Origin: Marinobacter adhaerens HP15
Lineage (GTDB): Bacteria; Pseudomonadota; Gammaproteobacteria; Pseudomonadales; Oleiphilaceae
Assembly (NCBI RefSeq): GCF_000166295.1
Contig: NC_017506.1
Span: 1,736,001-1,800,000, forward strand
Direction: 5' to 3'
Length of the DNA stretch: 64,000 nt
This document shows, in pieces, positions 4,840-60,410 of the stretch (positions within the stretch are counted from its first letter, which is position 1; each line of letters starts with the position of its first letter). A program made the translations under genes and the position numbers. A model generated the notes under the pieces. That model ran no database searches, had not been told where the DNA came from, and worked only from the letters and a program-made list of their open reading frames with translations.

Positions 4840-4916
4840 AACGCCTGTCCATTTGTTGGGCAGCTCCAGTGGTTAGTATTTCTCTCGTAGACATCAACCA
4901 CTGGAGAAAACTCATT

Positions 4917-5087
4917 ATGAAAAACGTCACTTCCAAAGCACTGCTACTTGTTTCTATTGCCCTGATCTCGGCGTCTGCAAGCGCCTCTCTTGCCGATCGA
5001 AAATCAGATGTTGATGATCACGGTGAGGCCGTAAGCAGCCCTTACTCAGGCCAGAAAGTCATTCGTGGTCAGGTCGTTTTGAAATAG
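4917..5087 (+). CDS. Small exported peptide, LADRKSD/PYSGQ family, one repeat
   Basis: A 56-residue protein. Residues 1-24 are a signal peptide (MKNVTSKALLLVSIALISAS then ASAS), leaving a mature peptide of about 32 residues that begins with LADRKSD and carries one PYSGQKVIRGQV motif. The ATG at 4917 was chosen because the signal peptide begins there; the upstream in-frame extension is not signal-like. A strong hairpin terminator follows. A related protein with two PYSGQ(I)VIRG repeats is encoded at 18599-18850. I do not recognise the family. It has no cysteines, and a secreted signalling, binding or structural role is possible. Confidence 0.7.
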   Translation: MKNVTSKALLLVSIALISASASASLADRKSDVDDHGEAVSSPYSGQKVIRGQVVLK

Positions 5088-5098
5088 CAAACAGTCAC

Positions 5099-5139
5099 AA
5101 AAAAGGGGGCAAGGATTCGTAATCCTTGCCCCCTTTTTT
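5099..5139. terminator. Bidirectional rho-independent terminator
   Basis: A near-perfect inverted repeat: A6-G5-C-AAGGATT, loop CGT, AATCCTT-G-C5-T6. It serves the peptide gene on the plus strand and the araC-type gene on the minus strand. Confidence 0.9.
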
Positions 5140-5155
5140 GTTGCGCCTTCAGTAT

Positions 5156-6025
5156 CTAGGCAACGTGCGCTTTTTCGGCAACGCTGGCGCTTACTGCCTC
5201 CGCTGCTGTCGTGTTCAATTTTTTCCATTCCCTGGGTGTCATCCCGGTGTTTTTCTTGAAGGCCCTGGAAAATCCCGATGCATCCTCGTAGCCCACTTCA
5301 AAGCAGATGATGGACATGGGTTTGTCTTTGAGAATCAGCTTCTTCGCAGCAGCTATCCGGGTGTTCTGGACGTACTCGCCGGGTGCCAATCCGAGGATGT
5401 TCTTGAAATGTTGAATGAAGGTTGATCGGGACATGGTTGCAACCTCTGCCAGCCTGTCCACGGACAGATCGCCATTCAGGTTTGAGTCGATGCAGCTTAG
5501 TACCTTACTTAGTTGCCTATCCGCCAATGCCGATAACAAACCTTTCGGCGTTTCTCCATCCGAGACGACATGCCGAAGCACATTGACAAATATCACCTCA
5601 ACCAGGCGATTCATGACGGCATCTCGCCCTTCCTGCGCCGCTTCGGCCTCCGCGAACAGCACATCCACGAAGGACCCAAGCCCCTGAACCGAAGATAGAG
5701 GCAGCACTACGGAGTCGGGCAGGGCGTCCAGGACAGGGTTCCGTGAACCTGTCTGGAACTTGATTGAAGCGCAAATCATCTCCGCGCCCTCACGATTGGC
5801 ACCAAAGAGCTGATGCGGTTGGGAGCGAACCGAAAAAATCATGGTCGGTTCTGACAGCGTGAGCTTCTCCCGGTTCGCTTCCATAATGTCGAGCACTCCG
5901 GATCGAAGCACGTGGATGTAGCCGGTTCCTTCTTCTTCAAAGGACGCCAGCCCGCAGAGCTGGCCCCGGAAGAAAACGCCGGCGTTCACATTAAGTTGGT
6001 CGAGGATGTAAGAAAGCCTGTCCAT
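5156..6025 (-). CDS. AraC-family regulator with cupin-like sensor domain
   Basis: A 289-residue regulator. The N-terminal half is the cupin_6-type sensor (FFRGQLCGLASFEEEGTGYIHVL, then PTMIFSVRSQPHQL). The C-terminal AraC DNA-binding domain has two helix-turn-helices (LSVDRLAEVATMSRSTFIQHFKN; PMSIICFEVGYEDASGFSRAFKK) and ends TPREWKK. ATG 6025 was chosen because GGAG lies 5 bases upstream. It is divergent from the YHS gene, so it may control YHS and the buf operon (inference). Confidence 0.85.
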   Translation of the reverse strand: MDRLSYILDQLNVNAGVFFRGQLCGLASFEEEGTGYIHVLRSGVLDIMEANREKLTLSEPTMIFSVRSQPHQLFGANREGAEMICASIKFQTGSRNPVLDALPDSVVLPLSSVQGLGSFVDVLFAEAEAAQEGRDAVMNRLVEVIFVNVLRHVVSDGETPKGLLSALADRQLSKVLSCIDSNLNGDLSVDRLAEVATMSRSTFIQHFKNILGLAPGEYVQNTRIAAAKKLILKDKPMSIICFEVGYEDASGFSRAFKKNTGMTPREWKKLNTTAAEAVSASVAEKAHVA

Positions 6026-6134
6026 AAGCACTCCAGATAATTGGCATAGAAGTTTGAACGATCGTACGCATTCAGTACCGCTCGAAGCCTTATTGTTTCA
6101 AACGTAGTCATCATTCATTCAAAGGAGATACCCA

Positions 6135-6605
6135 ATGACTCGTTTCAACAAACTTCGTGCCTTCGTTGCTGTTGCTGCCTTGAGCGCTGCCTCTGGTACT
6201 TTTGCTGCCGATATCGACATGAACGCCGACGCCAATGATGTTGCCATCAGCGGTTACGACCCGGTGGCCTACTTCTCTGATTCAGAGGCTACCAAAGGTT
6301 CTGCCGAATACACCGCTACCTATAAGAACGCGATCTACCATTTCTCCAGCGCAGAGAATCGCGATCTGTTTCGTGCCGACCCCAGTGCCTACGCGCCCCA
6401 ATACGGTGGCTACTGTGCGTTCGGCGTAACCATGGAGAAGAAGTTCGACGTTGATCCTGAAGCCTGGCGGATTGTCGACAACAAGCTTTACCTGAATCTG
6501 AACAAAGACGTGCAAACGCGTTGGCTCACGGATGTACCTGGCTTCATCGCCAATGCCAACGACATCTGGCCCGAGATCAAAACTGTGGAAGCAGCCGAGC
6601 TGTAA
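6135..6605 (+). CDS. Exported YHS-domain protein
   Basis: A 156-residue protein with a 24-residue signal peptide (LRAFVAVAALSAASGTFA) and a YHS domain: AISGYDPVAYF, YTATYKNAIYHFSSAENRDLF, PSAYAPQYGGYCAFG. YHS domains are linked to metal binding and heavy-metal handling; only one cysteine (YGGYCAFG) is present. It precedes bufA by 84 bp on the same strand and may be co-transcribed. RBS AAAGGAGA is strong. A periplasmic metal-related role is inferred from position. Confidence 0.8.
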   Translation: MTRFNKLRAFVAVAALSAASGTFAADIDMNADANDVAISGYDPVAYFSDSEATKGSAEYTATYKNAIYHFSSAENRDLFRADPSAYAPQYGGYCAFGVTMEKKFDVDPEAWRIVDNKLYLNLNKDVQTRWLTDVPGFIANANDIWPEIKTVEAAEL

Positions 6606-33599: not shown

Positions 33600-33990
33600 C
33601 AGAGCCTGCCGGCAGGGAGATGGCTGTGGAGCGGTTAGACGACCAACCTAACCGCTTAAATCCCTGAATCGCTGAATCAACAACTTAAGAACCTTTTTCA
33701 ACACAAAGTGCTTAAAAAAGCCCAGCCATGTCTTTGTCATTGGTTGGTCAAACTTTTCCACGCAAAGTACTTAAAATGGCGTACGGGTCCTCAGGGTATT
33801 GGAAGCTGCGCCGCTTGCGAGCTAGGGGAGGACGAGCGCTTTCAGATGGCTTGGCGAGAAACGCTGCTAAACAAAAGCGAACGTTCAAAGCTTGAAAGGC
33901 GGGCCTGAAACTTGCCCGCCCTTACTCATCTCTCCGGGTTATGCTCCAGTTATCTTTTAACCTCAGGTAGGTGGCTGGAAAACGCAGATG
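33600..33990. other. Gene-poor spacer with short repeats
   Basis: No convincing gene. A 66-codon frame opening with GTG at 33708 lacks an RBS and recognisable sequence. Two copies of CACAAAGTGCTTAAAA / CGCAAAGTACTTAAAA lie about 55 bp apart (near 33702 and 33759). A hairpin (33898-33920) precedes the end of the region. Confidence 0.5.
33898..33920. terminator. Hairpin, possible terminator
   Basis: GGCGGGC, 9-base loop, GCCCGCC, followed by CTTACT. Weak T tail. Confidence 0.4.
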
Positions 33991-43143: not shown

Positions 43144-45882
43144 ATGGGCAAGAGCGCGGAACAATCACCGCAAGTATCCTGCGATATCTGCCGGCAACGC
43201 CCTGCGGCTCTGCAGGTAACCGTTTCACAGGCCGGTCGAAGACGCACCCTCAACGTATGCCAAACGGATTATTTGCGCCTGAGAGCACGAAGTGCCTCTC
43301 CGTTTGAATCCCTGTTTGGCAGCGGGCTGCACTCCGACGATTTCTTCGAGCGGCTGGCGCGAGACGAGGATTTCGGCTTTGGCAGTGTCGCCAGTCGAGA
43401 GAATGGCCGGCCGCAGGATAGCGAATCGATCGCCCTCGGTGACCTGCTTAGTGAGCAAAGCGAGCAGATTCTGCAGCAAGCCGCGGCTACCGCGGCGGAG
43501 TGGGGTTCGCAGCTCATTGATACCAGCCACCTGCTTTACGCGCTGGCCGATAACGATGTGGTGCAGGCGCTGCTCAAGCGATACCAGCTGTCTGCCAGGG
43601 ACCTCAAGACCCAGGTTGAGCAACTGACACCCAAAGGTGCGAGCGAACCCGAAACGGACGGGCCTGCAAAGATCGGAGTTTCCCCACGGGTGAAAGCAGC
43701 GCTACAGCACGCCTTCCAGGCGTCGAGAGACCTTGGGCATGGGTACATTGGTCCCGAGCACCTTCTGATCGGTTTGGCCGAGGAGGAGGGGCTGGCCAGC
43801 GACTTGCTGAACCGTTACGGCCTTTCTGCACACAGTCTTCGGCAGAAGACTGTGCAGGTGGTCGGGAAGGGGGCGCAGGAGGGGCGACTGCCGGAGCAAA
43901 GCGACACACCCACCCTGGACAAGTACAGTCGGGATCTCACGGCACTGGCTAACGAGGGCAAGCTGGACCCGGTGATCGGTCGAGCGGCCGAGGTTGAGAG
44001 CCTGATCGAGGTTCTCTCCCGGCGCCGTAAGAACAACCCCGTTCTTATCGGTGAGCCGGGCGTCGGCAAGACCGCCATTGTTGAAGGGCTGGCGCAGCGA
44101 ATTGTTCACAACGAAGTACCGGACCTGTTGCAGAACAAACGAGTGGTTGAGCTAAACATCAACTCGCTGGTGGCGGGCTCCCAGTATCGTGGTCAATTCG
44201 AGGAGCGGATCAAACAGGTCCTCGACGAGATTACTTCCCACCAAAACAAGATTGTGCTGTTCATCGACGAGCTACACACCATTGTCGGCGCCGGATCGAC
44301 CGGGGGTGAGGGCGGGCTGGACGTCGCAAACACTCTCAAGCCACAACTGGCGCGTGGCGAACTGCATTTGGTCGGGGCGACCACGCTGGCCGAATACCAG
44401 AAGCACATCGAAAAAGACGCAGCGCTGGAGCGGCGGCTGCAACCGGTGTTCGTCGCCGAACCAACGATTGACCAGACCATCAATATACTCAGGGGGCTCA
44501 GGGATCGACTGGAGGCCCACCACAAGGTGACGATCACCGACGAGGCGATTGTCGCCGCCGTCGAGATGGCGGACCGCTACGTTACCAACCGGTTCCTGCC
44601 GGACAAGGCCATCGATCTGATCGATCAGGCGGCTGCCCGGGTACGAATCGGTGGCACTTCGCGGCCGCCGGAGCTTCACGAGCTTGGTGCACAGATCGAC
44701 CAATTGCGGCGCGAACGTGACTACGCATCCAACCGCAAGGATTTCGAGCGCGCGAGCGCGCTGGAAGCTCGTATCGAAGAACACCAAGGCGACTATGATC
44801 AAGGCCTCGAGGAATGGAACACGACCCGGAGCACTAGCGCTAACCAGGTAGACGTCGAAGATGTGGCACAGATCGTTTCGCGTCTCACCGGCGTTCCGGT
44901 GGCAGAGCTCACCACTGAGGAGCGCACGAGGCTGATGGAGATGGAACAGCGTCTACATCAGCGGGTTGTCGGTCAGGACGAGGCGGTAACTGCGGTATCC
45001 GATGCCGTGCGCCTTTCTCGCGCCGGGCTGGGCGACCGCCGCCGTCCCATCGCAACCTTCTTCTTCCTCGGACCCACGGGCGTGGGTAAGACGGAATTGA
45101 CCAAAGCCCTTGCGGAAACGGTATTTGGTGATGAAGAGGCGATGATCCGTATTGACATGAGCGAGTACATGGAGCGGCATACGGTCGCGCGCCTCATCGG
45201 GGCGCCTCCCGGGTACGTAGGGCACGAGGAAGGGGGTCAGCTTACCGAAAAGGTGCGCAGAAAGCCGTACAGCGTCGTTCTGCTGGACGAGTTCGAGAAA
45301 GCACATATGGATGTCCAGAACGTGCTGCTACAGGTCTTCGAGGATGGGCGGCTCACTGATGGCAAGGGGCGCGTTGTGGACTTCACCAATACCATCATAA
45401 TCGCTACGAGCAACATCGGTTCCGATGTTATCCGGGAAAACATCGAGGCCCCGGAGGACAAGCGCAAGGACGACGCGGAATTGAAGTCGGAGCTGTTGAA
45501 CGTGCTTCGTCGCTATCTCCGCCCGGAGTTCATCAACCGCATTGATGAGATCATCGTGTTCCACGCACTCGATCGCAAGCAAATCGGTGACATCGTAGGT
45601 CTGCAGCTCGAGCGCGTGAAGCGTATCGCGCACGGGCAGGGCTTGACGGTGGAGTTTGACGACTCACTCATCGACCACTTGGCGGATGTCGGCTACCGGC
45701 CGGAGTTTGGTGCGCGCGAACTTCGTCGCCAGATCCGATCCCTGATCGAGACGCGCCTTGCGAGTGCCGTGTTGCGGGGCGACATAGAGGAAGGTGATAG
45801 CCTGCGCTTCGTCTACGACGAGGGTCGAAGTGAGATCCGCTGGGAGAAGGAAGCAAAGGTGCCTGCCTCCGAACCGGAGTGA
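43144..45882 (+). CDS. clpK: ClpK/ClpG-type AAA+ disaggregase
   Basis: A 912-residue Hsp100 ATPase. N-terminal zinc-finger-like segment ([15 protein letters not shown] ... NVCQTDY; C13, C16, C39), then Clp-N repeats, NBD1 ([23 protein letters not shown]), a UVR-like middle segment ([15 protein letters not shown]), and NBD2 ([23 protein letters not shown]). No (I/L)GF ClpP-docking loop is visible in NBD2, in line with ClpK/ClpG, stand-alone disaggregases that give extreme heat tolerance and are commonly carried on mobile islands. The usual sHsp and other stress-island partners are absent here. Confidence 0.85.
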
Positions 45883-52700: not shown

Positions 52701-53095
52701 TTGTCGCAACTTTGACCAGGCTGAACGCTCGCTTTCGAGATCTATATGAATGTTCGCTTTGCGACCAAAGCTTCAGTTTCGAACCTCCACCGACCAACTT
52801 CGTCACCCGGAGTCGCCAGTTGCCGTTCGACGTCGTCATTGGCATTGCCCCAGAGCAGATCGGAAACGATCGGTTCTTTTCCGATTAGCGTGAGAATTAG
52901 CTCCCGAAGTCGGGACGGCATCGATTATCGTCAGTTTCTGTCACTTGAAATGTGATTTGACGCTTGTTCGTAGTTCGTCAACCGACCCCCGTTTCTCGCG
53001 GTTTTCCCGTTGGTTGCCATACTTATGAAACCGGAAGAGGGCGCTTGGCCGGGCCTGGAATTCCCCCCTGAAATTGACAGAACCCTGGACGGGAA
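52701..53095. other. Noncoding left flank of the accessory island
   Basis: No convincing gene. Holds the right copy of the 19-bp repeat (52748-52766) and scattered imperfect repeats (GAACGCTCGCTTTCGA, TCCCGAAGTCGGGA). The sequence immediately before the recombinase start is C/G-rich and may contain its att or res site, which cannot be decided by eye. Confidence 0.5.
52748..52766. repeat. 19-bp direct repeat, right copy
   Basis: Identical to 49712-49730 (GAATGTTCGCTTTGCGACC). Confidence 0.6.
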
Positions 53096-53835
53096 ATGTC
53101 AAAATCCATCACCAGCGCGCGGTCACTTCCGCGCCCGTCCCGAAATACGCGTTCGCTCGGCTTTCAGGAGCGTCCACTGGTCTCGTTCCCGATCACCGAG
53201 GTACCATCGATTGGGACCGACTCATCGACAAGCGGCCGTTGCTGCCGGAAACCCTCGACACCATGCCCAAGTACCTGCTCAAGCCCGAGGTACTGACGCT
53301 GCTGGAGGCCGAGACCCACCCCATGCACCGGCTGATCCTGGATCTGATGTGGTGCATCGGCGCGCGGGTCTCCGAGGTGCTGACGATCACGCCGGCGAGT
53401 TTCATTGATGACGGCTACGACTTCGGGGTGGTCCTCAAGACGATCAAGCAAGGGGCCGGGCGGCCGAGCAAACGCAGCCTGCAACGCTCGCCCAAGCGCT
53501 TTATTCCGATTCTGGATAGAGACTTTCAGACCCGGATCCAGAGCTACCTGTGGATGGGGAAGTTTCGGCAGGACGAGCGGATCTTTCCGATCACGCGCCA
53601 AGCGGTCAGTGCCAACATCGATCGGCTGATCGACCAGGTGGGGGGAGAGCCGCCGTTCAAGATCGGGTGCCATACCTTTCGGCACAGCTTCGCGGTGCAT
53701 CTGCTGCTGTACGGCCGACCGCTGAAGTTTGTGAGCCAACTGCTCGGGCATCGAAGCGTGGAATCCACAGAGGTTTACACAAATGTGTTAGCGTTCGACG
53801 GAGCGCATTTCTTGGAAGGCGTAGATTTTCACTGA
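53096..53835 (+). CDS. Tyrosine site-specific recombinase (possible 5' frame break)
   Basis: The C-terminal 200 residues are a tyrosine recombinase: GARVSEVLTI (catalytic Arg), CHTFRHSFAVHLL (HxxR) and LGHRSVESTEVYTNVL (H/Y). That frame is open to 53074, but its first 40 residues are unconvincing. The ATG at 53096 in another frame reads RSLGFQERPLVSFPITEVPS, and one extra G in the GGG at 53213-53215 would join it to DRLIDKRPLLPETLDTMPK. So a missing base or frame break is likely. Such short recombinases mark mobile islands or plasmid-type resolvases. Confidence 0.75.
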
Positions 53836-54007: not shown

Positions 54008-57000
54008 ATGGCTCTCTTGAGAACTGAGATCGAAAAGGCACTCGAAGAGCTCATCTCCCAAGAAGAAGGAATGCGTTTTCAAGGGCTCGCGGTTGTTATT
54101 GGCAAGTTGCGCTGGCCCGAACTCGTTGCCCGTCAGCGCAAGAAAGATTTGGGACTTGATGCCTACGCGCGCGCAAGCCTGACTCAGGAAAATGTTGGCA
54201 AGGGCCTCGCCGCGTCAATCACCCCAACCCTTACAAAAATTTCCCACGATGTAGTGACCGCCAAAGAGAACTTTCCTGATCTGAGAAAGCTCATCTTCGT
54301 GACACCCGCCAAAGTTGGGAACGCCGACCGCAAAAAATGGGAAGATAAGATAGAGCAAGATCACGGTATCGAACTGCATGTCATCGAGCGCGAGGAAATT
54401 ATCACTCTTATGCAGATGCCAGAGAGTGCCTCGCTATTAGCAAGCTTTCTCTATCTTAAGCACGATATCGAGCCTCCTGCTGAAAGTGTCGTTGCCAAGG
54501 CCAAGCGAGCCGCTGAAGTAGTCGTGCAAAATTGGTTTTCAAAGACAAAGAACCAGCCCCTCATTGATCTACTGGCGGTCCGTTTAGATCACGATGGAGC
54601 AGAATCTGACGATTTGCTGTCACTAGAACAAATCGACCAAGCGTTGTCCCAAAGCCGACGCATTGTTCTCGAAGGACCTGCCGGCCGAGGCAAAACTACA
54701 ACATTAATACAGCTGGGGTTAAAGTCTCGATTTGCTGGAATCCCCTTGATGATCGAGCTTCCGGCCTGGGCATCTTCAGGCCGGGAAATTCTTGAATATG
54801 TTGCCGGCATGCCTGCGTTTCAGGCTGAAGGTCTCACCTCTGCCGACTTGGCGCAATTACAGACGGTGGAACCCTTCTTGTTCCTGCTGAACGGGTGGAA
54901 CGAGATCGCGGAGTCAAACTCTGTACGAGCAGTAGAAGCACTTAAGTTGCTCGAACGAGATTTCCCGAGCTCTGGGATCATAGTCGCAACAAGAAAACAT
55001 CACTTCACACCCCCTTTGCCAGGCGCGACGCAGTTGAGATTGCTGCGCCTCCGACATTCCGAGAGAACCAGTTACCTAGAGGCCCGACTTGGGGGAAAAG
55101 GTAGAGCCCTTCGTATCCGTATCGATTCTGAACCTGCTCTGGATGATCTAACCCTTACGCCTTTCGTGCTCTCTGAAGTAGCTTCACTCTTTGAAGCAGG
55201 CGCGGATATTCCGTCCACGAAAATCGGCATTCTTTCTGAAGTTCTTCGACTGCAAGAACAACGAGACGAGCATAGGAATGCTTTACTCACTGCACCTATT
55301 TTTGGACGTCAAACGGATTTCCTAAAGACTTTAGCAACGGAGATGACTCGCCGAGGAACGGTGTATCTGGGTGAAGCCGAGGCCCGCTCTTTTACCGCCG
55401 ACATAACCAATGAGCTTGTGGCCTGCGGGCAGCTTTCCCCCGCTGGGTCGCCCGAGGTACTCTCGCTGCTGACGGCTCACCACGTACTCGAACGAATTGA
55501 CTATCCAAAGATAGCGTTTCAGTTTGAGCATCAACAGGTTCAAGAATACTATGCTGCGCTGGATCTTTTTGAACGCCTACTCGATATTGGGGAGGGGGAT
55601 CAAGAAGCGATTGAGCGTTTCAAGGAGCAATACGTCAACGATCCAGTGTGGGGCGAACCGGTTCGAATGATCGCCGAAATGTGTGCGGAGTCTACTGAGG
55701 ACGAAGCTTTACATGACAGAGCCGTCAGCGCCGGCGTGAAGCTTGTGGGAATGACGTTGTCCGTCGATATCGTATTCGCCGGTGAGCTTGCTAGACTTTG
55801 TGGCAAGCTTATATGGAAGAAGGTCCGTGATTCGGTTGGAGAGAGACTTCGAAACGTTTACACAGTTCAAGAGGGGGCTTTTCGACAACTCGCCCTAGCG
55901 GCTATGCTTGGCACCGGCTCCGACGACTTCAAAGATATAATTATTCCAGTTCTTTCAGGATCAGACCAACAGTCTCGCCTCAAGACCTACAGGCTCTTCC
56001 CATCTATTGAAACCTCATCTCTTGGACCGAACTGGCGCGATGAAGTGCGAGGCTGGAGTGAGGAGGCTAGATCTGATTTTGTTGCCGAATTGCTTCACCA
56101 TCGCTTAAAAGTTGAGATTGCTAACTTTGCTGCTGAAGATGAGAGTAAGGTTGTGAAGAGTGCAGCGATATCTGGTCTTCTATGGACAGGATCGGAGGAG
56201 GTTCTGGCTCGAGTTCTCGAGTCCTTGGATCCGGAAACCTTCGAGGAGCTTGCATGCCAACATACCAACGAATTTCCAAAGGATCTCAGGCCCAAGCAAA
56301 TCATTGCGATCCGCCATCGTCTAGATGCGACCCAAGACCCTTCTAGTCGCCTTAGAATGGGTTTGGAGTTGATAGAATTAGGAGAACGACGGTTAGCGGA
56401 AATCATCAAAGATGCGATGACCGCACTCTCTGGTAGTGAACTGAGCAAAATTGGTTCGCCGACCGTTAAGCACGCTCTCGAGTATATTGGAAGAACCGAT
56501 CCAGAGTGGGAAAGCGATTGGGTTGCTATCAGGATTGCCGAAGGCTCTCTTTGGGACCCCAAATACTGGCTGCCTTTTGTTACATGTGTTTCCGATGATT
56601 TAACCGACAAGCTCCTGACTCGCCTTGAAACCGAGGATCTGCGGAAAGAGCGCATTGACGGCCTCATTTTTGCGGTCTCGAAGCTATCAAACGAAAATAT
56701 ATCTGCCCGTGTCTTTAGCAAATTGCGTGAGCTTCAAGGGAGAGTAGACGAAGATCACGACAAAAAGCATGAATTTGAGTCCCAGATAATTTGGCAGCTA
56801 GAAGCTTTGTTTCGTAGTTTTCCCGGAGACGTCGCTGCGGCAGGAATTCTCTCCTCTGCATCCTGTCGGGATCCTCTTGACATCAAAGTTACCACTCAAG
56901 TTTTAACCAGAATAGCTTCGGATATGGAGCCTCTGAAAATCTGTAATGATGATCTAAGAGTGCAGCTCCGTTATTACCTGAGAAGTACCATAGATATCGT

Positions 57001-58552
57001 ACTGGAGCAGGACGATTTTAACGGCAAGGAAAAGGCCGACATGGCTTCTTCGATTGCACGAATCGGGGAACCCGGAGACATTGAGCTCCTGGTGAGGCTC
57101 ATCTACGCCGATATAGAAAGAATTCGCCAAGGAAAGGCTGCACGAGCTTCCGGAGATTCTGGTCCTCGCGTTAATGGTTCATATATGAGCTATTCTCGGT
57201 GGCATATTGCCTCTGCGAGATTACTCGACTCTTGCGGAGCCAACGAGGTCCTCATTGACTTGCTCTCAGAGCCGGAGTATCGCTCCGACGCGGCGGCTGC
57301 AATGGCAGTCGATTTTTTGCCCAAGTCGAGTCAGTTTTTCTCTCGTCCCTTTCGATCGGACATAATGTGGGCTGCGCGCGAAGGGCGCTCTACGTCGCCG
57401 GCCGACGACCAGTGGCGCACGCGGTTTGCATCCGCAATTAATTCCGAAATCGAGCGCCTACGAGAACGAGCCCCTGAGGGGAAATCCTTCCCAATCCTGG
57501 CACAGCTTGCAAATGCGCTTGCTGCCGTAGATGGCCACGGTTCCGCGGCAACAGTGTTAGAAATAATTGGAAAGCCTGACGAGTGGAACCAATTCATTTG
57601 TCTCGACGCCGCTGAACGATTACTTATCGCTGGAGTCCTGCTGCCGGTGAATACTCTATTTTCACAGGTGAATCCCATCCTTGAGAGAACTAGACACTGG
57701 CTCCAAAAATCGGAGAGGGATTTACTACGACGAGCCCTGGTGCTCTGTCCATTCGTAGATGACCCAAAGCTTGGAATCGCCAAGATGCGGGAGGTGCTTA
57801 GCAAACGCCAATTCCGAGGATACGAGCTGAGGGAACTTATAATGGCTCTTGGGGAGAGTCGATCGGAGGCGGCCTCGGAGCTCTTATACGATCTAGCAAC
57901 TGATCCACAGATCTTTCGGGAATGCGATGATTACCTCATCGATGCCCTCTCAAAACTCAACAAGCCGCTAGCGCGTGAACTGCTCCTCGGTCTTGTCGAT
58001 CCGGAGATTCCTGACCTCTTATTAACACGCCGCCCTCAGCGTGAGGACGTACTGGTGGGGCGCCTTGCCGAACTGGCTCAGGATGATGCCGAAGTGGGCG
58101 AACGGCTACGGAAGTTGTGCGAGTCAGATATTCCGATACTGATTAGAGATATCCTTTCGAAAGTAATGAACTTGATTGGGACGCCAGAAGCCTTTAGCGC
58201 CAGCCTAAGCCTGATTGATGACACCAGGCAAATAGCTATTCCACAAGGTATTTGGAGTCTGCTCAATAACGCGTTTATTAATCGACGCCCCCACGCACAG
58301 AATTCCAGTATCTTTGAGCTAAGTCCAAGCTCGTCAAATCAATTGCGTACTGAGCTATTTCGAATGGCGATTAGGGATGAAAAACGATGGAAGTCTGCCT
58401 TAAGGCTTCTTGTTGAAATCGAGGAATGGCGCTTGGAGCAGGGGAGGCCGACAATTGAACCTCGTCATCCCGATCTTACATCTGGGCAACCATGGCCGCC
58501 ATGGGAGGCTTTCGGCCATCCTAATCAGAAAACGCTCGACGGTCACTTATGA
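54008..58552 (+). CDS. NACHT-type STAND NTPase with nuclease-like N-terminus, candidate defence protein
   Basis: A 1514-residue protein starting at ATG 54008 (RBS GGGAG). Residues about 1-150 look like a PD-(D/E)xK-type nuclease or Mrr-like domain (GMRFQGLAVVIGKLRWPELV, RKKDLGLDAYARA with D47 and D51, TKISHDVVTAKENF), although a clear catalytic lysine pattern is missing. Residues about 210-480 form a NACHT-like NTPase: Walker A GPAGRGKT (223-230), Walker B FLFLLNGWNE (290-299), sensor IIVATRK. About 600-1500 is a helical HEAT/TPR-like solenoid. This nuclease-NTPase-repeat order is that of NLR-like/Avs phage sensors. No partner gene is adjacent; a recombinase lies upstream. Confidence 0.75.
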   Translation: MALLRTEIEKALEELISQEEGMRFQGLAVVIGKLRWPELVARQRKKDLGLDAYARASLTQENVGKGLAASITPTLTKISHDVVTAKENFPDLRKLIFVTPAKVGNADRKKWEDKIEQDHGIELHVIEREEIITLMQMPESASLLASFLYLKHDIEPPAESVVAKAKRAAEVVVQNWFSKTKNQPLIDLLAVRLDHDGAESDDLLSLEQIDQALSQSRRIVLEGPAGRGKTTTLIQLGLKSRFAGIPLMIELPAWASSGREILEYVAGMPAFQAEGLTSADLAQLQTVEPFLFLLNGWNEIAESNSVRAVEALKLLERDFPSSGIIVATRKHHFTPPLPGATQLRLLRLRHSERTSYLEARLGGKGRALRIRIDSEPALDDLTLTPFVLSEVASLFEAGADIPSTKIGILSEVLRLQEQRDEHRNALLTAPIFGRQTDFLKTLATEMTRRGTVYLGEAEARSFTADITNELVACGQLSPAGSPEVLSLLTAHHVLERIDYPKIAFQFEHQQVQEYYAALDLFERLLDIGEGDQEAIERFKEQYVNDPVWGEPVRMIAEMCAESTEDEALHDRAVSAGVKLVGMTLSVDIVFAGELARLCGKLIWKKVRDSVGERLRNVYTVQEGAFRQLALAAMLGTGSDDFKDIIIPVLSGSDQQSRLKTYRLFPSIETSSLGPNWRDEVRGWSEEARSDFVAELLHHRLKVEIANFAAEDESKVVKSAAISGLLWTGSEEVLARVLESLDPETFEELACQHTNEFPKDLRPKQIIAIRHRLDATQDPSSRLRMGLELIELGERRLAEIIKDAMTALSGSELSKIGSPTVKHALEYIGRTDPEWESDWVAIRIAEGSLWDPKYWLPFVTCVSDDLTDKLLTRLETEDLRKERIDGLIFAVSKLSNENISARVFSKLRELQGRVDEDHDKKHEFESQIIWQLEALFRSFPGDVAAAGILSSASCRDPLDIKVTTQVLTRIASDMEPLKICNDDLRVQLRYYLRSTIDIVLEQDDFNGKEKADMASSIARIGEPGDIELLVRLIYADIERIRQGKAARASGDSGPRVNGSYMSYSRWHIASARLLDSCGANEVLIDLLSEPEYRSDAAAAMAVDFLPKSSQFFSRPFRSDIMWAAREGRSTSPADDQWRTRFASAINSEIERLRERAPEGKSFPILAQLANALAAVDGHGSAATVLEIIGKPDEWNQFICLDAAERLLIAGVLLPVNTLFSQVNPILERTRHWLQKSERDLLRRALVLCPFVDDPKLGIAKMREVLSKRQFRGYELRELIMALGESRSEAASELLYDLATDPQIFRECDDYLIDALSKLNKPLARELLLGLVDPEIPDLLLTRRPQREDVLVGRLAELAQDDAEVGERLRKLCESDIPILIRDILSKVMNLIGTPEAFSASLSLIDDTRQIAIPQGIWSLLNNAFINRRPHAQNSSIFELSPSSSNQLRTELFRMAIRDEKRWKSALRLLVEIEEWRLEQGRPTIEPRHPDLTSGQPWPPWEAFGHPNQKTLDGHL

Positions 58553-58578
58553 TCAAGTCGTTTAAAGGATGTGCTTAA

Positions 58579-58673
58579 CGGCTGCCAACGCAGAAGAACA
58601 GCATCATCGATGAGCTATTGCCGCTCGATTGGAATTCGGCCGCTTCTGACAAGTTATAATTTCGGACGCTTAC
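58579..58673 (+). mobile_element. IS66-family transposase remnant, C-terminal end with inverted repeat
   Basis: One frame reads RLPTQKNSIIDELLPLDWNS then stops at 58657, the hallmark C-terminus of IS66 TnpC (RLPTxxxxxIDELLPxxW). The end CGGACGCTTAC (58663-58673), read inversely GTAAGCGTCCG, matches an IS66-type terminal repeat. The element ends 5 bp before the next gene's ATG. Nothing upstream of the tail is preserved. Confidence 0.65.
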
Positions 58674-58677
58674 GCAT

Positions 58678-59841
58678 ATGGAAGGTATAGAAGTAATAAT
58701 CAACATTTTTGCGCAGATGATTAGTGCTTTTTGGGCAGATCATCTCCCGGTCATCGGGAGTTTTGCTCGTGACATTGCTGTAGCCGTCTCGGCAGTCTGG
58801 GCTGTGTGGGCTGGACAAAAGGGGTTGCGTAAATATCTTTATGACGAGGACCTCAAAGAGCGGGCAAAGAGAGTTCGTTCCGCAAATGAAGTGGCTCATC
58901 ACGAAGCTCGTAAGGTATTGGAAGATATTGAATCTACTGATACCAACACCCGGCCTGTTACGGAAGATGACCTCGATGCATACCGGAACTGGGCAGAAAA
59001 ACTTAATAGGGCTACTCGCGGCAGCAGCTCATCTGTCCAGACATACGCATTCTTTTTGCGTCAGTTTTTGTCAGTGGTTAAGCCTAATTATAAGTCTCAG
59101 TATGGTGCTAGCGAATCCATTGTGACTCTTGATCTTCTCAACCTGGTTTACGCAATCGCACATATGATCGCCCATGAGGCAGCACATATAGTCGATGTGC
59201 CAGATTATCCAGAACTAAAAAAGAATTTGTCGAAGGGGAAAGGTGCCTATCGTGTTGTGCCTAAACATACCTCCGTGCGATTTCCTGGGGGGCGGTACGG
59301 GCTTGATTTAAATCCTCAATCCGAACCTGCACACGAGTTTTATTCAGCGGTCGTAGCGGTAACTTCGAGTAGAGTACTTCGAAAAGAATGCCTGAGGATT
59401 ATTCGATCAAACTTACCAGTCGTACAAAAATTGTTTCGGTATGGGATTTATTTCCCGCCTCGGTTAGACGTGGATCGGACCCTTGGACCTAATTCACTGC
59501 CTATCCTCTTCTCAGGCCAATTGTATTTAATCGGCCTCAAGCGAGACTTTGTGGCGGCTGAAAAACAAAGTGGGTATGTATGGAAGGCGTGGTATGCGGA
59601 GTTAGGCGGAGGAATCAAGTTCACAAATACGTCAGAGTGGTTGAGCCATATAGGGAAAAACTACTTTGATCTTGTCAATGATTCGCAGGAGTTCAATAAA
59701 AACTTTCAGAAGGCAACTGTCTATGCGGGTGAGATTATCGAGGTTCCTGTACCGGAATCAGAAGTAAAGAAACTCTCGTTGCTCCGGAAGTGGGCGCTCA
59801 AGAAGTGGTTGGGTAAACTTGGTGTGCCTACTAAAGGCTAG
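58678..59841 (+). CDS. Membrane-anchored protein with HExxH motif, unknown function
   Basis: A 387-residue protein. Residues about 20-46 (LPVIGSFARDIAVAVSAVWA) form an N-terminal membrane helix followed by a charged helix (LRKYLYDEDLKERAKRV). In the middle AHMIAHEAAHIVDV carries HEAAH (166-170), an HExxH zinc-peptidase-type motif, with E/H residues downstream (EPAHEFYSAVV). No family recognised. The ATG lies 5 bp after an IS66 end, without an evident RBS, so the true N-terminus or its promoter may have been altered by the insertion. Codon usage is AT-rich, like the STAND gene. Confidence 0.6.
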   Translation: MEGIEVIINIFAQMISAFWADHLPVIGSFARDIAVAVSAVWAVWAGQKGLRKYLYDEDLKERAKRVRSANEVAHHEARKVLEDIESTDTNTRPVTEDDLDAYRNWAEKLNRATRGSSSSVQTYAFFLRQFLSVVKPNYKSQYGASESIVTLDLLNLVYAIAHMIAHEAAHIVDVPDYPELKKNLSKGKGAYRVVPKHTSVRFPGGRYGLDLNPQSEPAHEFYSAVVAVTSSRVLRKECLRIIRSNLPVVQKLFRYGIYFPPRLDVDRTLGPNSLPILFSGQLYLIGLKRDFVAAEKQSGYVWKAWYAELGGGIKFTNTSEWLSHIGKNYFDLVNDSQEFNKNFQKATVYAGEIIEVPVPESEVKKLSLLRKWALKKWLGKLGVPTKG

Positions 59842-60057: not shown

Positions 60058-60410
60058 CATAGTTCTGGCCAGACCTGACGCTATTACACAATCGAAATTA
60101 ACCGCCGGAATCCTACGTATTGAACGCCCAAAAGGCACTATCCTATGAAAATCTCGAAAACGTTCAGAATCATAGAGATAGAGTCATGGACGACGGATTT
60201 AGGACTTCTTGTGAAAATTTAGTACTTTCTGTGGCTATTCTTTAGCACTTTCTGTGGTCGTCCACAAACGGGCAAAACAGCATCCAATCCCCAGTATCCA
60301 ACTGCGCATAATGTATATTATGTTAAATAGGGTGTAGGGGTACAAAGTTAGAAACTTATAAAAATGCTCGCCCTCCAATCCGCAACTCGCCTGTCCGGCT
60401 CTCGGGTCTT
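60058..60410. other. Noncoding right edge of the accessory island
   Basis: No gene is visible. AT-rich, holds the tandem repeats at 60198-60257 and a short inverted-type string TGTATATTATGTTAAATA near 60310. Marks the boundary to conserved genes. Confidence 0.5.
60198..60257 (+). repeat. Three short tandem repeats
   Basis: TTTAGTACTTTCTGTGG (60218-60234) and TTTAGCACTTTCTGTGG (60241-60257) differ at one base with a 23-bp step; TTTAGGACTTCTTGTG (60198-60213) is a degenerate third copy. Iteron-like or transposon-end-like. Confidence 0.6.

Follow-up and report, generated by a model that had tools for sequence, protein, structure and literature searches.

The DNA analysed here, hereafter the window, is a 64,000-nucleotide stretch of Marinobacter adhaerens HP15 (NC_017506.1, positions 1,736,001 to 1,800,000), in which a frame uninterrupted over 1514 codons (54008-58552, forward strand) encodes a NACHT protein, i.e., a relative of the NLR receptors, and a candidate single-gene defence receptor. 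The protein is real and island-borne and its plan is ordinary; what is unusual about it are two active sites that are altered and yet strictly kept. A sequence-only reading of this DNA had already described a 1514-residue protein with a P-loop GPAGRGKT and a NACHT-like Walker B stretch LLNGWNE, and the intact frame as well as both motifs (residues 223-230 and 293-299, respectively) are confirmed. The ATG start seems well placed, as the homologues share the same first residue and the GGGAG immediately 5' of it resembles a ribosome-binding site. Starting from a TTG, the frame could also give 1539 amino acids (aa), a form set aside with no support from the homologues. The gene and its parts are as follows:

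54008-58552, forward strand: NACHT (NLR-related) protein, candidate single-gene defence receptor (intact frame, homologues)
54008-54457, forward strand: N-terminal domain (residues 1-150), effector slot, with Mrr-like motif order (weak collinear hhalign alignment with Mrr families)
54146-54160, forward strand: D47-x-G49-x-D51, putative counterpart of the Mrr DGGxD, D51 being at the catalytic Asp position (conservation)
54215-54223, forward strand: S70-I71-T72 in place of (E/Q)xK (conservation)
54236-54250, forward strand: K77 ... D81, candidate relocated active-site residues of presumed catalytic role (conservation)
54620-55567, forward strand: NACHT NTPase module and winged-helix "FxHQQxQE", residues about 205-520 (family profile against NLRC4)
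54674-54697, forward strand: Walker A, GPAGRGKT (G226, G228, K229, T230 and T231 invariant in 67 rows)
54890-54904, forward strand: Walker B, NGWNE, the first Asp replaced by Asn295 (homologue comparison)
55805-58237, forward strand: HEAT-like helical solenoid, presumed sensor (subthreshold HEAT_2, alphaRep matches)
58262-58498, forward strand: NCAB2, NACHT C-terminal alpha/beta 2 domain (PF22726, E 1.3e-24)

The protein has numerous relatives, and the homology is not a matter of chance, since 959 of the 8000 candidates scored in a protein search reached E <= 1e-3. Among the 120 matches listed, most have 60-64% identity along the whole protein, and the names include Rokubacteria, Thiobacillus, Halomonas, Planctomycetes, Nitrospirae and Pseudomonas, while a scan of genome contigs gave 16 loci with proteobacterial and delta-type, Planctomycetota, Rokubacteria, Nitrospira and Acidobacteria titles. 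The alignment used below comprised 251 of the 285 proteins in hand (length 1400-1800 aa, near-copy P0002 excluded), from which a non-redundant set of 41 at no more than 72% mutual identity was drawn, the other 40 of these being 36-63% identical to the window protein. Eight more distant relatives, five from plasmids (L063-L067) and three from genomes (L069-L071), have the NACHT part in common, and seven of them have NCAB2 as well, the shorter L067 being the one without it.

The central part is, as judged from profile similarity, a NACHT module, because the 67-row family profile matches the NLRC4 chains of the PDB (E 1e-5 and 1.3e-5, profile positions 219-446), which upholds the NLR/NACHT relationship proposed from the letters alone; the winged-helix piece at 504-531 also aligns with NLRC4, very weakly (about 1 bit by itself). 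In the Pfam scan, one homologue (P0136) exceeds the NACHT cut-off with 28.2 bits against 26.7, and the window protein itself has no NACHT match, with nSTAND_NTPase5 staying below cut-off. PADLOC and NCBIfam returned weak P-loop matches only for this protein (GajB, Cas3d and mad8 in PADLOC), and no Avs model was matched in the PADLOC scan, a collection which should include such models. The first residue of Walker B, which would be expected to be acidic in bacterial NACHT proteins and belongs to DGYNE in NLRC4, is Asn295 in the window protein; all 284 proteins in hand, a count that includes the window protein, have Asn at this place. As the eight distant relatives have Asp there in seven cases (Asn in L069), the loss of this Asp is fixed in the subfamily and is not shared by its wider kin. 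Given that the rest of the NACHT module is kept, Asn295 is treated here as a variant that does not disqualify the protein from NACHT membership, the residue not being counted as a defining one.

The sequence-only reading saw about 900 residues of helical repeats behind this module, and what can be said for that is that Pfam HEAT_2 appears below cut-off in the helical region and that designed HEAT-like alphaRep chains match around residues 712-810 in the profile comparison with the PDB (best E 3.9e-6, single repeats not being significant alone), so a long C-terminal part that is at least partly HEAT-like seems a reasonable description. The lowest conservation bins of the alignment are residues 701-1000. 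The protein closes with NCAB2 at residues 1419-1497 (86.9 bits, cut-off 27), which places it among the NACHT proteins of the NCAB2 type. Remnants with an NCAB2 stretch were seen elsewhere, too, at L168 (5858-8355) and L167 (6001-6249), of which the former adjoins a 1357-aa protein whose frame has an Mrr_cat match. The idea that such small NCAB2 open reading frames (ORFs) are separate genes was dropped: the one in genome G147 (L168) resembles a decayed NACHT-type gene, and at L167 only a short NCAB2 stretch without annotation was seen, not embedded in any full gene.

The N-terminal domain (N-domain) is a further point at which the subfamily departs from the distant relatives. BLASTP with residues 1-175 did not find it in any of the eight, the weak matches lying in later parts (E >= 0.028), and an HNH-type N-terminus (C..C, H, N, H by eye) is found instead in six of them (L063-L067, L070). 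That of L063 is annotated as "HNH endonuclease", five HNH-type relatives were scanned with Pfam and two of them give subthreshold HNH_2 matches (E 0.024 and 0.09), and L069 and L071 start with N-termini other than the HNH type. The N-domain thus occupies an exchangeable position in which nuclease-type domains occur. One homologue (P0213) also has pP_pnuc_1, which is a predicted pPIWI-associating nuclease, fused to its C-terminus (residues 1579-1710; 81.9 bits, cut-off 26.3).

Within the subfamily, the N-domain is kept with considerable strictness, residues 1-50 being the best conserved 50-residue bin (mean 0.84). The non-redundant set of 41 shows R44, D47, G49, D51, S70, D81 and T99 without exception, E19 and K77 are kept in 40 and T72 in 39 (Ser in the other two), and Q25 is invariant across the 67 profile rows. 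A pattern including the downstream Lys, run over 284 proteins, found S-x-T in 273, S-x-S in two and S-x-A in one, with eight missed; with a looser S-x-T pattern the misses fell to six proteins, whose starts are all shifted; ASIT can be seen in four of these, and two are too short to read. A search for E/QxK after DxGxD matched 17 of 285 proteins, six of them downstream of S-x-T, and in the five of these that were inspected it lies in a loop or helix and never in a strand. Thus, the remark of the sequence-only reading that no textbook catalytic triad is present was right, and the feature is family-wide rather than a sign of decay. Its "nuclease-like" label for the same N-terminus fared worse, as no library match backs it (N-domain alone against the PDB: one chance-level match, E 1.6; Pfam scan of 18 individual N-domains: no restriction family) and the profile comparison with Mrr is suggestive only.

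That comparison used 30 Mrr_cat and 5 Mrr_cat_2 reference sequences (L142, L143 and L151 left out), with hhalign scores of 15.5 for Mrr_cat (15 of 60 shuffles as high), 20.3 for Mrr_cat_2 (1 of 60), 20.1 for both combined (0 of 60) and 14.8 for Cap4_nuclease (14 of 60). The combined alignment runs in register over 121 columns, a length of at least 100 columns being reached by 1 of 300 shuffles and none of nine decoys, and it is only this collinear length that stands out in an otherwise suggestive similarity. An FQ helix, DxGxD, a strand, an F-x-T-P strand and an L-x-V-I strand follow one another here much as in the Mrr sequences compared, which have DGGxD or DTGxD and then (E/Q)xK; of the residues that mark a PD-(D/E)XK/Mrr nuclease, D51 is present and S-x-T stands in the place of (E/Q)xK. 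Two alternatives in which the receptor stays the same meet at this point. The N-domain might be a different enzyme with its own chemistry, i.e., a new type of effector, for which the strict motif (DxGxDA, SxT, K77, D81) and the absence of any library family covering the domain could be adduced, and which we hold to be unlikely given how far the motif order parallels Mrr over those 121 columns. It might also be a catalytically dead restriction-endonuclease fold that serves as a binding module, its target being DNA, RNA or a partner protein; assembly, or the recruitment of a host or second factor, would then provide the defence. The family-wide loss of ExK and the extra predicted nuclease at the C-terminus of P0213 suit such a module, as does the existence of inactive effector versions described for other NTPase conflict systems (PMC7159879). 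D47, D51, S70, T72, K77 and D81, on the other hand, are kept almost without exception, beyond what a simple scaffold would need, and the dead fold remains in our eyes a rather doubtful, if serious, contender.

The N-domain is also rare, its profile matching, among 398 genomes of the window's phylum, only the window's own genome and one other. The latter has a stand-alone 327-aa protein with the N-domain (L021, 1495-2478), D51 and S-x-T kept, and this protein is flanked on both sides by similar stretches which we take to be Rpn-like.

The gene lies in a variable region, the features of which are:

33635-60167, no strand: variable region (island) holding the gene (synteny with genome G009 ends and resumes)
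53074-53835, forward strand: island-associated tyrosine recombinase (PF00589, Phage_integrase, E 2.9e-15)
58565-58674, no strand: mobile-element relic of 110 bp (blastn to plasmid DNA, one record with a "Mobile element protein" gene)

This region measures 26.5 kb. Synteny with G009 ends on the left at window position 33634, inside a contig that continues for at least 1500 bases beyond the match, and resumes on the right at 60168. A close copy of the right-hand flanking gene is present in 21 other same-genus genomes; 11 of the 21 were compared, and the match resumes between 60.17 and 60.52 kb in 11 of 11 (which by construction hold the flank gene at 60.45-61.08 kb); no stretch of at least 100 bases from 45.0-60.0 kb aligned in the DNA fetched from these 11 genomes. 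Both flanks are on one contig in G023, about 32 kb apart and with other genes near the right flank. Hence, the variable, non-core setting expected from the letters alone is what was found, a patchily distributed gene inside this region, and so is the adjoining tyrosine recombinase, whose DNA has a 91% identical copy elsewhere in G009. Two further points of that description stand in part: the DNA is AT-richer, modestly so (50.8% guanine plus cytosine (GC) in the gene, whereas the segments 1-39 kb and 39-54 kb have 53.4% and 58.3%, respectively, and the right-hand side has 53.7%), and of the "IS66 remnants" the mobile-element relic was recovered, the IS66 label itself resting on a frame around 59.9-60.06 kb that looks IS66-like by eye. 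A search for a guessed 17-base end motif found nothing.

Several neighbours within the region deserve a mention in their own right. A 387-aa orphan protein (58678-59841, forward strand) with a hydrophobic N-terminus and a HEAAH stretch, HExxH-like by eye, is encoded near the mobile-element relics, with no Pfam match below E 0.1, no PADLOC match and no plasmid match. A Clp-type AAA+ disaggregase (43144-45882, forward strand), which presumably resembles the ClpK/ClpG of stress-tolerance islands, sits in a 60% GC block. In G009, the counterpart of this hotspot (L073, G009:C5, 7954-12360, to the left of the right flank) has mercury-operon-like genes and a tyrosine-recombinase-like fragment.

The distribution is that of a rare gene: it was found in 1 of 38 genomes searched, the window's own, the other 24 same-genus genomes being without it. 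Among the plasmid records, 21 of 72,556 match partly and none over 80% of the protein; among the phage records, 1 of 50,697 matches. A NACHT-like stretch (4910-6205) with 27% identity to residues 229-673 (E 2e-33) is seen in the 6.8-kb record MT837468.1, titled Bacteriophage sp., and two peptide patterns run once over viral contigs returned 52 stretches and no confirmed relative. A 16-row tree separates the two copies of one planctomycete genome and places one next to an alphaproteobacterium, on a branch that has 86/80 support and is not starred; as 8 of the 13 inner branches are open and the branch of the window row is long (0.66), the tree fits horizontal transfer weakly.

Neighbours were compared, as ORFs of at least 80 aa, across 17 places, i.e., the 16 loci and the window. 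Three is the largest number of places in which any one neighbour family recurs, that family being resolvase-like, and three others are found in two each, so a single gene without a fixed partner, as the sequence-only reading had it, is supported for the loci compared; the same result tells against a dead fold. The scan for defence genes covered 89 of 196 flanking ORFs of at least 170 aa, of which 20 were also scanned singly. Four of these 20 match at 1e-15, namely PDC-S06 (L008), PDC-S31 (L010), a RecD-like helicase (L013) and a type I methyltransferase (L015), and L002 has the N-terminal and HEPN domains of ApeA (ApeA-type HEPN). Specific defence genes are thus present at no fewer than four named loci of the 16, and AbiEi, AbiEii, PDC-S11, SLATT_5 and DUF4062 are found somewhere among the 89 neighbour ORFs, DUF4062 being described as an antiphage NADase (PMC13174449). 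At 1e-10, 112 PADLOC families are matched in the neighbours (the first 25 of the 112 being listed, with one member each) and nine in 89 control ORFs, a contrast that is overstated because many neighbour families fall on one protein (they cluster, 24 of them on one ORF). The control consisted of 89 of 96 ORFs from 15 of 16 places in eight genomes of the window's order, with hosts unmatched, and gave member counts of five for mad3, three for mad8, two for each of three RtcR-type models and one for each of four others. A Cap4_nuclease match was also noted in a 1426-aa frame (G280:C1:4013468, L169), about 24 kb from an HNH-NACHT-NCAB2 gene in the same genome.

A quite different explanation is that of a STAND protein with no part in defence, whose role would be signalling or regulatory and which is carried on islands by chance. 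In its favour, a role in phage protection is so far a prediction from sequence and context, a cellular partner that is itself conserved might account for the close identity across phyla, and the neighbour control is not clean. It is nonetheless an improbable explanation for a gene that is rare, patchy and located in a variable region, with specific defence genes adjoining several homologues and with HNH-type N-termini borne by the same receptor body.

We consider a defence-receptor function very probable and a nuclease chemistry of the N-domain an evenly balanced matter. The full reading we tentatively put forward, with confidence a little short of even, is that of a single-gene NCAB2-type NACHT antiphage receptor, the N-domain of which would be a rebuilt Mrr-like nuclease. 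It is preferred because of the NLRC4 match, NCAB2, the HNH type in the same slot, the strict conservation of the N-domain and the 121-column Mrr alignment, as well as the patchy distribution, the variable region, the named defence genes, the pP_pnuc_1 fusion of P0213 and the nuclease requirement of bNACHT25/32 (see below). Several points weigh against it: the N-domain is not covered by a family of Pfam, the PDB or PADLOC; none of the 41 sequences has the Lys of ExK at its position; 4 of 300 column shuffles equal the combined Mrr score, and among nine decoys cut from the same protein the highest scores are 23.7 (with the N-domain) and 19.8 (with Mrr), so by score the match is only suggestive; the fusion of P0213 could mean that the N-domain does no cutting by itself; the lost Walker B Asp may weaken ATP hydrolysis; no other defence gene was identified beside the NACHT gene in M. 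adhaerens HP15; and, as control ORFs match PADLOC too (member counts summing to 17, so at most 17 ORFs), the defence-neighbour evidence, which does place specific defence genes near several homologues, is not a clean or measured enrichment.

If the rebuilt-nuclease reading holds, the solenoid and the NCAB2 domain would keep the NACHT module inactive in the resting cell until a phage-derived or phage-induced signal, presumably a ligand, binds the solenoid/NCAB2 end, whereupon the NACHT module would take nucleotide and probably oligomerise, and the N-terminal domains would thereby be brought together and become active. The N-domain would most likely have an Mrr-like restriction-endonuclease fold with a rebuilt active site, D51 being kept, ExK having become SxT, and K77, D81, E19 or Q25 being possible substitutes; catalytic residues can migrate within this nuclease superfamily, as in Cfr10I. 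By attacking nucleic acid, such a domain would presumably lead to the arrest or death of the infected cell before phage release.

It is conceivable, though we would not count on it, that the S-x-T domain represents a new class of immune effector, with either a rebuilt nuclease site or a chemistry of its own, and that the NACHT switch it is coupled to, having lost the Walker B Asp, would work mainly through binding nucleotide and less through hydrolysing it; the S-x-T and Walker B changes are fixed together over a family spanning several phyla. Bacterial NACHT proteins being relatives of animal inflammasome receptors, a widespread subfamily with an altered effector motif and an altered NTPase acid, both of them strictly conserved, puts a general question to the test: which catalytic steps does NLR-type immunity need? 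A receptor body with a natural N-terminal swap, of the HNH type or the S-x-T type, would likewise be useful for separating sensing from killing. In the literature searched (subscription papers were mostly outside its scope), this subfamily was not found described, nor NCAB2 named.

NACHT proteins of this kind are already known, and the unusual part is that both enzyme-like sites are altered yet strictly kept across the subfamily. NLRC4, the mammalian NLR, shares the NACHT module and an aligned winged-helix motif, and differs in having DGYNE where NGWNE is found here; it carries a CARD, none of which was found in the window protein, which has a HEAT-like solenoid and NCAB2. The HNH-NACHT-NCAB2 protein of Rhizobium etli p42d (L063) is 24% identical over residues 226-1105 and has NCAB2 by Pfam, whereas its N-terminal slot is of the HNH type and its Walker B Asp is intact. 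Mrr_cat and Mrr_cat_2 (PF04471, PF13156) share the motif order, DxGxD and the FxT strand, with (E/Q)xK there and SxT here, the match not being significant by score. The clade numbers of NACHT proteins reportedly come from a survey by Kibby et al. 2023. A close parallel in plan is offered by bNACHT25/32 of clade 6, which combine a PD-(D/E)XK DNase with NACHT, need the nuclease residue D48 for defence and degrade DNA upon infection (PMC12169576); for DS-8, effector residues and a NACHT residue are both required (PMC13092281). bNACHT25/32 and the window protein are alike in being single proteins with an N-terminal slot of the PD-(D/E)XK type (putatively so in the window protein), a central NACHT and a C-terminal sensing part, and in having a conserved Asp near residue 50 (D48 there, D51 here), the N-domains being likened by description, and they differ in that NCH1 and a D48-dependent DNase are found there, and NCAB2, S-x-T and the Walker B Asn here.

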